A stretch of DNA of 64,000 nucleotides from Longimicrobiales bacterium (lineage in GTDB: Bacteria > Gemmatimonadota > Gemmatimonadetes > Longimicrobiales > Gaopeijiaceae): contig OX639991.1 in the NCBI GenBank assembly GCA_951828585.1, forward strand, positions 2,760,576 to 2,824,575, in the 5' to 3' direction. The notes under the pieces are model-generated. The model was not told the DNA's origin and searched no databases. It saw only the letters and a list, made by a program, of their open reading frames with translations. Each line of letters opens with the position of its first letter. Position 1 is the stretch's first letter. Positions 1 through 39,589 of this stretch are shown piece by piece. The translations under genes and the position numbers were made by a program.

Positions 1-677
1 TCCCGTTCCTTCGCTTCCCGGGCCGTCTCGAGCTCGTCGTCGCTGTTGACCCCGAGCAGGACCACGTTCTCGCCCTTGTAGCGCTCCAGCATCTCGCGCT
101 GGTGGGGGTACTCTTCACGGCAGGGGCCGCACCACTCGCCGGAGAAGATCAGCACGACGATGTTGCCGCGATAGTCCTCGAGGGTGAACCTGACCCCGTC
201 GGTGTCCGTGCCGACGATGTTCTGGGCGACCTGGCCCGGCGTCAGGACGAGGAGGCGCCGCTGCTCGTCGATCATTCTTGCGTGGCGGGAATGATCCGCC
301 TTGAGGCCTTCCAGGTGTTTGCCTACGCGTTGACTCTGTTCCGCGGTGACGAGTCCCTTCCCCAGCGCCCAGCGGAACCCCTGCAGGTAGCGTTGGCCCT
401 GTCGCCTGAAGCTCTTGACGGTTTCGGGGAGCGCCAACACCGAATCGAGGGTCGCGAGCAACTGGCCGACCTGTTCGTCCTCGAAGAACGTACCTTCCGG
501 GTGACCGGTTACGGTGCCGCGGAAGTCCTCGTGCGCGATGTCCCAGCTGCCTGCGCCGCAGGCGGTCGCCAGGGAGATGGAGAGCAGGGTGAGCCATCTG
601 GCGGGGCCGGCGCCTCGCCGCTCCCGGTGCTCGCGGGGGCCTGCCGACGGAGTGCTGGCGGGATTGCTCGTGTTCAT
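1..677 (-). CDS. TlpA-like thioredoxin-fold lipoprotein (3' end cut by window edge)
   Basis: Exported thiol-disulfide oxidoreductase-like protein; the C-terminus lies beyond the left edge. Reading from the ATG at 677, a short hydrophobic stretch ends in a lipobox (LATAC, Cys about residue 31), so a lipoprotein outside the cytoplasm is predicted. About 110 helical residues follow, then a TlpA/AhpC-TSA core: GNIVVLIFSGEWCGPC, with the WCGPC redox motif, followed by a stretch ending in LLGVNSDDELET. It is a clear paralogue of the protein at 5640-6500 (same layout, WCAPC there). The family usually reduces or isomerises periplasmic cysteines; the substrate is unknown. It is transcribed away from the nitrile hydratase operon. 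Family assignment is firm, role inferred. Confidence 0.8.
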   Translation of the reverse strand, partial: MNTSNPASTPSAGPREHRERRGAGPARWLTLLSISLATACGAGSWDIAHEDFRGTVTGHPEGTFFEDEQVGQLLATLDSVLALPETVKSFRRQGQRYLQGFRWALGKGLVTAEQSQRVGKHLEGLKADHSRHARMIDEQRRLLVLTPGQVAQNIVGTDTDGVRFTLEDYRGNIVVLIFSGEWCGPCREEYPHQREMLERYKGENVVLLGVNSDDELETAREAKER

Positions 678-21829: not shown

Positions 21830-21903
21830 TTGTCCGCCACTAAATGGCAACAGTGGCCGACAAAATTGGTTGTCCGCCACAAAGAGGCAATAGTGGCCGA
21901 CAA
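21830..21903. repeat. 34-bp dispersed palindrome, tandem copies 2 and 3
   Basis: Copies at 21830-21863 and 21870-21903, period 40 bp, same orientation, between the Fic gene and the membrane-protein paralogue. The loops AAATGGCAAC and AAGAGGCAAT are related. Arms TTGTCCGCCAC and GTGGCCGACAA are unchanged in both. Confidence 0.88.
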
Positions 21904-21946
21904 AATCCTTCGGCACCCCGCTGATCAGGCGATCAGCGACAACCCA

Positions 21947-24084: not shown

Positions 24085-24885
24085 TCAGCTGGTGAGGGCA
24101 TAGACGACCAGGTTGACGCCGAAGCGGGTGGGATCGACGGCGATGAATCGCTTGGTGTCGGGGCCGAAGGACCACTCCGACGTGTAGTCCTTGCTGCTGT
24201 AGAGGAGTGAGATGCGTTCGCCGCGGAAGACGCCGTACAGGTGCCGGTGCAGGAGGTTGTCACCCCAGCCGTTCAGCTCGTGGGAGGTCGCGGGCGGCCC
24301 GCGGTCGAATTCGAAGAACTTGGTGTAGAGTTCGTGATCGTTGGGGATCTCCTGGAGCGCGTCCGGCCCGAAGGTTCTGGCGATCTCCTCGTGGGCGGTC
24401 TTGTGGAACTCGCCGTCGATGTCGTGGTTGTGATCATCCACGACGATGAAGCCGCCCCGGTCGACGTACTCGAGCAGGTTTGCGCGTTCCTGTTCGGTGA
24501 AGGCGAGCGGAAAGTGGCCGGTGAACCACACGAAGGGGTGCTCGAAGATCTGCCGGCTCCCGAGCGACACGATGGAGCCGCGCGGGGCCACGGGTAGCAC
24601 GGTGTAGCGGGCGATGGTGTCGATGAGGTTGGCCACCATGCCGAGGCCGCTCTCCCAGTCGCCCACCTCGTATTGGACCGAGGTCCAGCGGAACTCCTCG
24701 GCGGGGAGGGGGAGGTTGAGGGGTGTGTGCCGGGGGTCCGCGCCGTGGGGGACGCGGGTGGCCGATCGGGATGAAGCTTGCGGACTCCGGGGGTTGCAGG
24801 CCCAGGGATGGGTCACCCGTTCGAGTGTCCTGGCGACCAGGGGGTCGGTCGCGTGCCCAGCCCGGAGACCGGCCGCCGGTCCCAT
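24085..24885 (-). CDS. DUF4159 domain protein
   Basis: 266 residues, dominated by a DUF4159 domain: FRWTSVQYEVGDWESGLGMV, then HPFVWFTGHFPLAFTEQERA, NLLEYVDRGGFIVVDDHNHD and a C-terminal SFGPDTKRFIAVDPTRFGVN. This is a Rossmann-like fold related to amidotransferases and is typically encoded beside MoxR, DUF58 and BatA. The start at 24885 overlaps the DUF4175 stop as TGATG with GGAGAA upstream; the 24900 and 24912 ATGs are less well placed. Function unproven in the family. Confidence 0.85.
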   Translation of the reverse strand: MGPAAGLRAGHATDPLVARTLERVTHPWACNPRSPQASSRSATRVPHGADPRHTPLNLPLPAEEFRWTSVQYEVGDWESGLGMVANLIDTIARYTVLPVAPRGSIVSLGSRQIFEHPFVWFTGHFPLAFTEQERANLLEYVDRGGFIVVDDHNHDIDGEFHKTAHEEIARTFGPDALQEIPNDHELYTKFFEFDRGPPATSHELNGWGDNLLHRHLYGVFRGERISLLYSSKDYTSEWSFGPDTKRFIAVDPTRFGVNLVVYALTS

Positions 24886-26819
24886 CACCGTTTCTCCCAT
24901 AGCGCGCTCCACGATGTGAGTCGTCTCCTGATGATCGTCCGGCCCTCGAGCGCGCGGCGCACCTCGGCGAGCGACGCGGTCGCATCCTCGTCTGCGCGGA
25001 TGGCCGCCACGGCTTCACCCAACACCGAGGCCAGCCCGGGGAACTCGCGCAGCGCTTCCACCTGCATGCGCATGAGCGTGTTCATGGCGCTGTCGGGGGC
25101 CGCTTCCAGCAGGCGCACGGACTCCACGTAGTTGGCCATCAACTCACGCCGTTTCTCGCCGGACATCTCCCGTCGGACACGCGGCGCGGCATAGCCGGTG
25201 TCCTTCCCCTGCATGCGGACCCGCCCAAGGTTGACGAGAAGTTCAGGCGGTTGCCCCCGGAAATAGTACCGTTCGGTCAGAGCGAATTCCTGCAGCAACT
25301 TGAGCGCGGCCCACATGGGCGGCAGCGCCTCGCCGGTTTCGGCGATGTAGAGCGCGCGCACGCCCTCCCAGAGCGCTTCGTGAGCCTCCGCCAGGAGCGG
25401 ATTGGGGTCGAAGACGCCTTCCATGGTCCACTCCCGCTGCATCAACTCGACGGTGCGGATGACGCGCCGGAGCTGGATCCCGATCGACTGCGCCGAATCG
25501 ACGAAGAGGTCGCGCGACATGGTGCGCCTCTCGGCGTGGATCTCCTCGGTGAGCTGGATGAGGTAGCGAAGGCTCAGGAAGAGGCTGTCGTTGGGCGGGG
25601 GCGCGCCTTCAATGGCAAGCGAGTCGTACTCCGACGAGGTGGCGAGGCGCAGGACGCGTGTCTCCGAGGTGGCGTAGCTTGGGCCCGACAGCGTGTTGTT
25701 GTCGAAGGTGACGGCGCGAAGGGAGAGCATGTCGCCCTCCTCGAGCGAAAAATACGCCAGGGGCAGTGTGAGCGAGAACTCCCCGCTGCGGGCATTGTCG
25801 AGGTCGCGGCGCTCGAGGGTGTCGCGGCGGAAGGTGATGTGTCCCTCCTCTTGTCCCATCGTTACGATCGACTCGAAGAAGGCTCCGCCGAGACCGATGT
25901 CGTCGCTCATCCGGGCGTGGAGTTCGATGTCACCTTCGATGGTGCGTACGGTTGTGTCCCGCATGGGGAGCAGAAGCTCGACGGAGGGCGTCGCGTCCCG
26001 CCGGGGATCGATCACCACCAGCCGCTGGTATTGACGGTCCCTGAGTTCGAGGGCCACGGCGGAGTCGGGCAGGGTGAAGGCGGATTGCCAGCCGTCGTCG
26101 CCCTCCGGGGCCGCTTCGAGGGGGGTCTCGCCGAGGAGGATCTCGATCCCGTCGGGGATGCCCTCGCCGTGCAGGTCGACGGTGCTGCCGGCCAGGCCGG
26201 CGATGGTTGCGGGATCGTCGAACTCCTCGCGCCGCAGTCCGCTTCGCCGGGCGTAGGCGGGTGGAGTGACCGAACCTCGGAGCACGTCCAGGCGGCTGGG
26301 CATTTCAGTGACTTCGGTTGTGTCGTCCGCCGCCGTTCCGACGACGGCGGTGCGCCAGTTCTGCGGGACGGCCGAGTAGGAGACGCCGGTGACAAGGAGC
26401 AGGATGGCGGCCGGGAGGAGCGATCGCAGCGCGGCGCGCCTGACGAAGGCTCCGGGATCGACCCGGGCGATGATGGGGGCCAGGCGTTCGCCGAAGCGGT
26501 CGGCGTAGCGTGGGTCGATGGCCGTGACGAGGGCGTAGCGAAGCTCCGGGGCGCGCTCCTCGACCCAAAGCGCGACGCGTTGCAGGGACCAGACGAAGCG
26601 GCGGCGCCAGAGGAGGAGGACGAGGGTGGCGAGACCTGCTGCGATGGCGGCCGGCAGGATCACCGGGCGGATGCCGGGGGGGAAGGGGAGGGCGAGGGAG
26701 AGGAGCATCGCGGCCACGAGGACCCCGAAGGTGACGCCGGCGCCCAGGAAGAGAGCGGTGAGGGTTGTGAGGAGACCCAAGCCGCGCTTGGTGCGCTGGA
26801 CTTGCTGGAGGGGCGTCAT
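24885..26819 (-). CDS. DUF4175-type membrane protein
   Basis: 644 residues: two membrane helices in the first 75 (LTTLTALFLGAGVTFGVLVA and VILPAAIAAGLATLVLLLW), a third near 135 (SLLPAAILLLVTGVSYSAV), then a long extracytoplasmic part with Ig-like strands (VTPPAYARRSGLRREEF, MSDDIGLGGAFFESIVTM) and a helical C-terminus. This is the layout of DUF4175 proteins of MoxR/Bat operons. ATG 26819 overlaps the stop of a 15-codon micro-ORF (ATGA). Its first residues (MTPLQQVQRTKR) are repeated in the two micro-ORFs upstream, a product of tandem duplication. Confidence 0.8.
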   Translation of the reverse strand: MTPLQQVQRTKRGLGLLTTLTALFLGAGVTFGVLVAAMLLSLALPFPPGIRPVILPAAIAAGLATLVLLLWRRRFVWSLQRVALWVEERAPELRYALVTAIDPRYADRFGERLAPIIARVDPGAFVRRAALRSLLPAAILLLVTGVSYSAVPQNWRTAVVGTAADDTTEVTEMPSRLDVLRGSVTPPAYARRSGLRREEFDDPATIAGLAGSTVDLHGEGIPDGIEILLGETPLEAAPEGDDGWQSAFTLPDSAVALELRDRQYQRLVVIDPRRDATPSVELLLPMRDTTVRTIEGDIELHARMSDDIGLGGAFFESIVTMGQEEGHITFRRDTLERRDLDNARSGEFSLTLPLAYFSLEEGDMLSLRAVTFDNNTLSGPSYATSETRVLRLATSSEYDSLAIEGAPPPNDSLFLSLRYLIQLTEEIHAERRTMSRDLFVDSAQSIGIQLRRVIRTVELMQREWTMEGVFDPNPLLAEAHEALWEGVRALYIAETGEALPPMWAALKLLQEFALTERYYFRGQPPELLVNLGRVRMQGKDTGYAAPRVRREMSGEKRRELMANYVESVRLLEAAPDSAMNTLMRMQVEALREFPGLASVLGEAVAAIRADEDATASLAEVRRALEGRTIIRRRLTSWSALWEKR

Positions 26820-26863
26820 GCTGCTCTCCTCTTCCGCTGGACTTGCTGCGGGCGGGCTGTCAT
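26816..26863 (-). CDS. Micro-ORF 2 (15 residues) from duplicated gene start
   Basis: ATG 26863 to TGA 26816 encodes MTARPQQVQRKRRAA. Its stop overlaps the DUF4175 ATG and its start overlaps the stop of micro-ORF 1, both as ATGA. The sequence is a copy of the DUF4175 N-terminus joined to the KR-x-AA end of BatA. Whether the peptide matters is unknown; coupling of ribosomes from BatA to DUF4175 is the simplest effect. Confidence 0.5.
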   Translation of the reverse strand: MTARPQQVQRKRRAA

Positions 26864-26904
26864 GCAGCGCTCCTCTTCCGCTGGATCTGCTGTTGGAGGG
26901 CCAT
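26860..26904 (-). CDS. Micro-ORF 1 (14 residues) from duplicated gene start
   Basis: ATG 26904 overlaps the BatA stop (TGATG) and the frame ends at 26860, encoding MALQQQIQRKRSAA. With micro-ORF 2 it forms a chain of overlapping starts and stops that replaces a single gene junction. The underlying DNA is about three copies of a 43-bp unit containing CCTCTT and CGCTGGA. Confidence 0.5.
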   Translation of the reverse strand: MALQQQIQRKRSAA

Positions 26905-28400
26905 CAGGCTGCTTTCCTCTTGCGCTCACGACCGGCTGACCCGCCTCGATTGCCACGCCGTGAGCGGCCGCTCGCGGGTCCCTTGTCGGATCCCTTTGCC
27001 AGCCGTCGCCTTGCCCAGTGCTCGGCGAGCGCGACAAGAAGGGCCAGCGCGAGGATCCATGGAACGGCAGGGGTCACTCGTTTTACCTGGCGCCCGATTT
27101 CGGATGCGGGCGCGAGCGGGCCGTCTCCCGCGAAGGCGGTCAGGAATTCGTCGGAGAGGGGGGTCGGATCGCCGGGTTCGCCGCACGGGGCGTCGAGGCC
27201 GGCCAGGAAGCGCTGAAAGGCGGGGCGGAGGATCGCGTCGCCCTCGGTGGGGAGGGGGATCGCGATGGAGCGGACGCAGCCGTCGGCGGTGGCTGTTTCG
27301 AAGGCGGCGGGCTCGCCATCCATCCAGCGGGCGTAGACTCGGGTGTTTTGGGGGGGGGTGGTGGGAGATGGGCTGCTGGCGGAGAGTGCGGCGGGTGTCG
27401 CGGTCGCGGGTCGCCAGCGGCGCTCGAAGGGGTAGACCATGACGGCTTCGTTCGCCCGCACGCCGGCGATGGTGTCCGGGGTCTCGCGTTGGGTCCAGAG
27501 CTCGGACGCGGCGGAATCGGCCCACTCGACTCGTGCGCGTGCGACCTGCCTGGGCGATTCGGTGGCGATTTCCGTCGGTACGGGGTCGGTGACCGCCGTC
27601 CGCACTCCTGTCGGCAAACCGTCCGCGGCGCCCACCCCCCCCACCCTCACCACCTCGATGCGGCCCGGCCACAGCGCCCGGATCCGCTCCGTCGCGGCGT
27701 CCCGCTCCTCACGCGCAAACGGCGAAATCACGACCAGCTCCAGCGAGTCGGCCCCGTCGCGCAGCCTCGACGCGGTGCGGAGCGCGGCGATCAGCGCACT
27801 CGAGAGTGACCCCTTTGCGGCCCGGGTCCGCCGCGATCCCTCGCTGGGGGCTCCCCGTGGCCCGGTCCCCTCCCCGGCCAGCCGCCCCTCCGGTGAGTCG
27901 AGAGTCCCCTCCCCGGCGAGCACCCCCGTTGAGTCCACAGGCTGTCCGGCGGGGCCGTCTCCCGAAACCGTCCCCCCCTCCACCACCGCCTCCAGCGAAT
28001 CCATCGCCCCCCCCACCTCGCGCGCCTCGCGGTCGAAGAACACCACCGCCGCCGCGCCCTCCACATACCCCCGCGCACTGTCCGCCAGCTCGTGCGGACT
28101 CCCCACCGCCCGCGACACGTCCACCACGGCAATACGCGCGACCGGAGCCGAGAGGGGGTGGAGGACGGGGCGGGCCAGCGCGGCCCCGAGCAGCAGGATC
28201 AGCAGTACCCGCAGCACCAGGAGCCAGGGGTCGCTGAAGCGCATGGTGATGGTGGTCGCTTGCACCGGAACCTTCGGGATGAACCGCACGGTGGGGAGCA
28301 GGTCGGTGTCGGGCTCCCGGGTGGACAGGAAGTGCAGCGCCACGACCCCGGCCGCGATGGCGCCCGCGGCGATGAGGTAGACGGGAGCGAGGAAGATCAC
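26904..28400 (-). CDS. BatA-type membrane protein (aerotolerance regulator N-terminal domain)
   Basis: 498 residues. It begins with the BatA/TIGR02226 N-terminal module: IFLAPVYLIAAGAIAAGVVA, ALHFLSTREPDTDLLPTVRF and a second helix LVLRVLLILLLGAALARP. A VWA-like extracytoplasmic domain follows (VARIAVVDVSRAVGSPHELA, with the DxSxx start of a VWA motif but not a full MIDAS), then a low-complexity insert and a C-terminal helix (ILALALLVALAEHWARRR) with a basic tail ending KRKAA. GTG at 28400 overlaps the DUF58 stop (GTGA). Acts with MoxR and DUF58 in an envelope complex of unknown task. Confidence 0.85.
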   Translation of the reverse strand: MIFLAPVYLIAAGAIAAGVVALHFLSTREPDTDLLPTVRFIPKVPVQATTITMRFSDPWLLVLRVLLILLLGAALARPVLHPLSAPVARIAVVDVSRAVGSPHELADSARGYVEGAAAVVFFDREAREVGGAMDSLEAVVEGGTVSGDGPAGQPVDSTGVLAGEGTLDSPEGRLAGEGTGPRGAPSEGSRRTRAAKGSLSSALIAALRTASRLRDGADSLELVVISPFAREERDAATERIRALWPGRIEVVRVGGVGAADGLPTGVRTAVTDPVPTEIATESPRQVARARVEWADSAASELWTQRETPDTIAGVRANEAVMVYPFERRWRPATATPAALSASSPSPTTPPQNTRVYARWMDGEPAAFETATADGCVRSIAIPLPTEGDAILRPAFQRFLAGLDAPCGEPGDPTPLSDEFLTAFAGDGPLAPASEIGRQVKRVTPAVPWILALALLVALAEHWARRRLAKGSDKGPASGRSRRGNRGGSAGRERKRKAA

Positions 28401-39444: not shown

Positions 39445-39581
39445 TTGTCGGCCACTATTGCCATTTAGTGGCGGACAAACCCGCCGCCTCGACCGTTGTC
39501 GGCCACTATGGCTCCGAAGTGGCGGACAAGCCCGCCAAATCAACCGTTGTCGGCCACTATCGCCCCGAAGTGGGCGGTCAA
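39445..39581. repeat. 34-bp dispersed palindrome, tandem copies 5-7 (inverted orientation)
   Basis: Copies at 39445-39478, 39496-39529 and 39547-39581 with an exact 51-base period. They read TTGTCGGCCACT-N10-AGTGGCGGACAA, the reverse complement of copies 1-4; the loop ATTGCCATTT of copy 5 is the complement of the loop type in copy 2. The 17-base spacers are alike (both contain CCCGCC and end ACCG), so unit duplication made the array. Confidence 0.9.
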
Positions 39582-39589
39582 ACGCTGCC

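Follow-up and report, generated by a model that had tools for sequence, protein, structure and literature searches.

Tandem stop/start junctions between the BatA and DUF4175-like genes of a Longimicrobiales bacterium: a probable local duplication of an ordinary translational-coupling junction

Three stop/start junctions follow one another in tandem on the minus strand between a BatA-domain gene and a DUF4175-like gene in the window, a stretch of 64,000 nucleotides from a Longimicrobiales bacterium. The starts lie at positions 26904, 26863 and 26819, and two micro-ORFs stand in series between the two genes. The array is likely to have arisen when an ordinary translational-coupling junction was duplicated locally in tandem, and its chain of micro-ORFs is likely to have formed without selection and to be near-neutral.

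The BatA-domain gene (26904..28400, minus strand; 498 amino acids; PF07584, E=1.1e-10; from the list of ORFs) ends with a TGA at 26906-26904, which forms an overlapping TGATG with the first of the duplicated start codons. It is followed in the sequence by micro-ORF 1 (MALQQQIQRKRSAA, 14 amino acids; 26860..26904, minus strand) and by micro-ORF 2 (MTARPQQVQRKRRAA, 15 amino acids; 26816..26863, minus strand), whose ATG forms an ATGA overlap with the micro-ORF 1 stop. The stop of micro-ORF 2 in turn overlaps, again as ATGA, the ATG of the DUF4175-like membrane protein gene (24885..26819, minus strand; 644 amino acids; from the same list). The protein encoded by this gene starts with MTPLQQVQRTKR at 26819, and this start is conserved in the 8 full-length sequences that were aligned. 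Each of the three starts is preceded by a Shine-Dalgarno-like AAGAGGAA/AAGAGGAG sequence, which doubles as codons for 'KR' or 'RKR'. In front of micro-ORF 1, this sequence is AAGAGGAAA and lies within the BatA tail (26913..26921, minus strand); micro-ORF 2 is preceded by AGAGGAG (26870..26876, minus strand) and the DUF4175-like gene by AAGAGGAG (26826..26833, minus strand). The gap from AGGAG to ATG amounts to 6 nt at the second and third starts. Since each unit comprises the end of the upstream gene, a Shine-Dalgarno (SD) sequence, a stop, a start and the head of the downstream gene, the repeated unit is a complete junction.

Tandem Repeats Finder (TRF) describes the array as 2.8 copies of a 44-nt unit (26803..26926, minus strand), consisting of BatA tail, SD, stop/start and DUF4175 head, with a score of 157; when the window was shuffled 60 times with its dinucleotides preserved, no score exceeded 68 (periods of at least 18). 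The start-to-start distances are 41 and 44 nt, and the steps counted from an AGCG(C/G)A motif are 44, 44 and 41. The original prediction had described a junction duplicated in tandem with its reading chain intact, and the TGATG, ATGA and ATGA overlaps as well as both micro-ORFs are found as it claimed; its copy number of about three also holds, but its unit of 43 bp does not agree exactly with these spacings and with the TRF period of 44. Folding of the junction RNA gave an unremarkable structure (z = +0.76).

The two genes are part of the series MoxR (AAA_3) - DUF58 - BatA - DUF4175-like - DUF4159, and the named relatives of the locus are Gemmatimonadota MAGs. The DUF4175-like protein has no match in Pfam, and its name is that of the original prediction. 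In the window (24085-26819), the DUF4175-like and DUF4159 genes are separate, and in other genera of the family they form one frame of about 955 amino acids or more. A search of a plasmid collection with BatA gave no match. In distant orthologues, BatA again often overlaps the next gene by ATGA or TTGA, with NTGA overlaps in several of them, which argues for an ordinary coupled gene pair as the ancestral starting state.

The origin of the unit is indicated by its borders. In an outgroup with 82% identity (L013), two AGCGCA motifs flank a single junction at a distance of 41 nt from each other (-19 and +22, counted from the start); thus, a direct repeat borders the position of the unit in an unduplicated relative. 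In the window, the upstream AGCGCA lies in the BatA tail (26921..26926, minus strand), where the TRF array begins, and the downstream one lies within codons 8-10 of the DUF4175-like gene (26792..26797, minus strand). Both inserted copies carry AGCGGA instead, at 26882 and 26838. At the AGCG(C/G)A motif, the copies in the window switch from the sequence of the downstream gene (GTCC or ATCC) to that of the upstream gene (AAGAGGAG). Such a switch at a 6-nt microhomology is, as judged from the sequence, the trace that slippage or unequal exchange leaves behind, and either of them would have been the molecular event.

In the proposed course of events, the ancestral BatA tail would have read ...AGCGCA-AGAGGAG-GCAGC-ATGA..., with the ATGA opening the DUF4175-like gene and AGCGCA recurring at its codons 8-10, a state that the outgroup still shows. 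Slippage or unequal exchange between both AGCGCA motifs would copy a 41-nt unit, which contains the SD and the stop/start overlap together with a few codons. Reading from any copied ATG would then continue to the TGA of the next copy, thereby producing a chain of coupled micro-ORFs. The copied frames reach the next stop in frame because 41 equals 2 mod 3 and each start precedes the stop by 1 nt; later length changes of +3 and -3 preserve the chain. With a slip length of 2 mod 3, the micro-ORF chain is therefore a geometric by-product, to be expected beforehand in about one case out of three. Such a duplication would be almost harmless and could drift, with expansion, fusion and collapse among sister species.

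These states are represented among the relatives. One junction is present in seven of the nine genus members that have the gene, with the window's own genome counted, and this junction is a single plain ATGA in L003 and L005-L010. A sister species at 93% protein identity (L004/L012) possesses its own three-copy array with a period of 41 and a TRF score of 125. In L012, the second ATG has become ATC, the middle start and SD are lost, and a frame change fuses the micro-ORFs into one 29-amino-acid frame, which extends from the BatA ATGA to the DUF4175-like ATGA and has the product MTALRQPVRRTRKSGITPLRKLRRTRRTA. Another sister species (L003/L014, 93%) has a single junction, and its BatA ends with ...GRQQVQRKRRAA (QQVQRKRRAA), which corresponds to the tail of micro-ORF 2; this BatA tail is best read as the remnant of a collapsed array. 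Since each of three neighbouring segments yields a tree with its own order of the sister species, the states in the three species may stem either from one ancestral array or from repeated slippage. Units within a genome are slightly more alike (0.83) than orthologous units (0.73-0.74), hinting at repeated slippage or conversion, but the comparison covers 41 positions, which are too few. A 'very recent' duplication, as had been suggested initially, does not fit these data, as the units of the window array are only 72-83% identical and the sister species carries an array of its own.

Multiplied starts were also found in two other genera. In one of them (G052; L046:1500-1598), a 34-nt SD-ATGA unit is present three times before the gene of an unrelated 54-amino-acid membrane protein, and in the congeners G050 and G051 the junction is single. 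In the other, a distant genus (G086; L061:1428-1481), four ATGGCTGA starts lie within about 54 nt at the same BatA|DUF4175-like junction and link three micro-ORFs in series (MTHEGDG, MADPIDG and MAEPMADPIDG), of which only the first is preceded by an SD. Thus, junction multiplication recurs, with independent start multiplications in two other genera, one of them at the BatA|DUF4175-like junction. The repeated hit on this junction may hint at something special there, a hint drawn from two events. The pattern SD-ATGA-15..45-SD-ATGA occurs once in the window's own genome and in 13 of 395 genomes of the phylum, compared with 4 genomes with a match to the control pattern; most of the matches are not duplications. 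One 400-kb part of the own genome, analysed in stretches with a crude self-written gene caller, contained 218 co-directional gene pairs, 48 of which had classical overlaps. Among the gene junctions of this sample, a strong tandem repeat was seen at just one further site (L091:3519-3717), where 99 bp at the end of a gene are perfectly duplicated in tandem but form no micro-ORF chain. The window also contains tandem palindromic REP-like units, TTGTC(C/G)GCCAC...GTGGC(C/G)GACAA, at 21830-21906 (two copies) and 39445-39583 (three copies).

The stop/start overlaps of 4 nt or 1 nt, the co-directional genes and the SD within the upstream frame are those of an ATGA-type coupled pair; translation of the DUF4175-like gene may depend on upstream translation. 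Coupling needs overlaps or very short gaps, and a gap of about 20 nt almost abolishes it (PMC10666635); an insertion of 85 nt would therefore uncouple the genes unless it had its own hand-overs, which the array carries. Some ribosomes may pass from BatA via micro-ORF 1 and micro-ORF 2 to the DUF4175-like gene by termination-reinitiation, while others may start afresh at the strong last SD, which is the DUF4175-like gene's own. With both relay passage and fresh starts at the last SD, expression would be little changed.

Whether the chain is maintained by selection was considered from its divergence and from simulations. Between the window and L012, the spacer has diverged by 0.26 and the fourfold-degenerate sites of the adjacent gene by 0.28. 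The micro-ORF peptides differ throughout between the two genomes, and purifying selection was not detected, in a comparison that has low power with only two array genomes. When a three-copy array was allowed to diverge neutrally to the observed extent, a working chain was left in 34-51% of runs; for random spacers between identical ends, the share was 28%. Since neutral runs often keep the chain, two intact chains in two genomes are evidence neither for selection nor against weak selection. The original prediction had also proposed selection for ribosome hand-over and subunit ratio, which is not supported, as a 41-nt slip yields the chain by itself, the spacer diverges at the fourfold rate, the peptides are unconserved and neutral simulations retain the chain. 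The duplicated junction probably arose as a near-neutral accident and is no new regulatory device on this reading.

The strongest alternative is a relay kept by selection, in which the added hand-overs serve to adjust the DUF4175:BatA ratio or to safeguard coupling. The chain is intact in both three-copy genomes, the window retains all three SDs and overlaps, and intact chains and SDs would also be expected under weak selection for coupling. Furthermore, an 85-nt spacer without a relay is expected to abolish coupling, for which about 20 nt suffices in E. coli and Haloferax (PMC10666635), and a three-micro-ORF chain exists at the same junction in G086. However, L012 has lost the middle start and SD, the sister L014 manages with a single junction, and the neutral-like divergence and simulations described above also speak against it; a selected relay is thus rather improbable. 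Somewhat less credit still is given to a broader version, according to which this junction repeatedly gains serial micro-ORFs in the family and the multi-step relay adjusts the protein ratio as a naturally evolved translational attenuator tunable by copy number.

Functional micropeptides are highly unlikely: start, SD and stop are all in place in the micro-ORFs, but their sequence is merely BatA tail plus DUF4175 head, it diverges at the fourfold-site rate, and the sister species yields a different, single 29-amino-acid product. Hardly any weight falls on an inserted mobile repeat that preserves coupling, like the mycobacterial MIRUs. The geometry is that described for MIRUs, in which short stop/start overlaps couple a short ORF to the genes beside it; however, the unit is made from the two flanking genes themselves, and a second copy of the array was not found in the complete 4.47-Mb genome (next best match, E 0.47). 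Assemblies are error-prone at tandem repeats and the array was judged from assembled sequence rather than raw reads, but an artefact has a negligible probability, because the copies differ at 17-28% of positions, which makes read collapse or stutter implausible, and a comparable array is present in a separately assembled MAG; the single junction that the original prediction named as a counter-finding is indeed the state of most relatives, without the array being artefactual.

Taking the array as a local duplication of a coupling junction, it illustrates that such a junction can be duplicated with little damage. As the copied piece holds an SD, a stop and a start, one slip length in three rebuilds an unbroken hand-over chain. 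Tiny relay ORFs between operon genes could arise naturally in this way, and the case also carries a warning, as an intact chain of overlapping micro-ORFs alone is not evidence of function. If protein ratios shifted with copy number, junctions of this kind would act as tuning elements in nature. No paper describing the local duplication of a coupling junction turned up in the literature collection searched, which is not proof of absence.

The array shares with ATGA/TGATG coupled pairs, which act by termination-reinitiation, the 4-nt or 1-nt overlap, the SD inside the upstream frame and the location between neighbours of the same operon (PMC6728339, PMC10666635). In contrast to these pairs, the junction is present three times, and the hand-over would have to cross two micro-ORFs of 14-15 codons. 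According to a review that cites Supply et al. 1997, MIRUs insert at start codons and contain an ORF coupled at a -4 nt spacing (PMC12548453). Like the array, they are depicted there as a short ORF at a gene start, with a stop/start overlap with the neighbour and little effect on expression; however, MIRUs are described as dispersed and apparently mobile, whereas the array is single in its genome and derived from its own flanking genes (PMC12548453). An overlapping ORF that preserves coupling is thus common to both, and dispersed genomic copies are not. In the bicistronic design (BCD) expression cassettes of synthetic biology, a short leader cistron holds the SD of the next gene, and the leader stop overlaps the next start. 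The array likewise has leader cistrons with an SD and a stop overlapping the next start; unlike the synthetic BCD, it is natural, has two leaders in series between two operon genes, and its relay action is putative. By analogy with MIRUs and BCD cassettes, both of which PMC12548453 mentions, the array would work like a translational relay, but one that is locally made and not dispersed.
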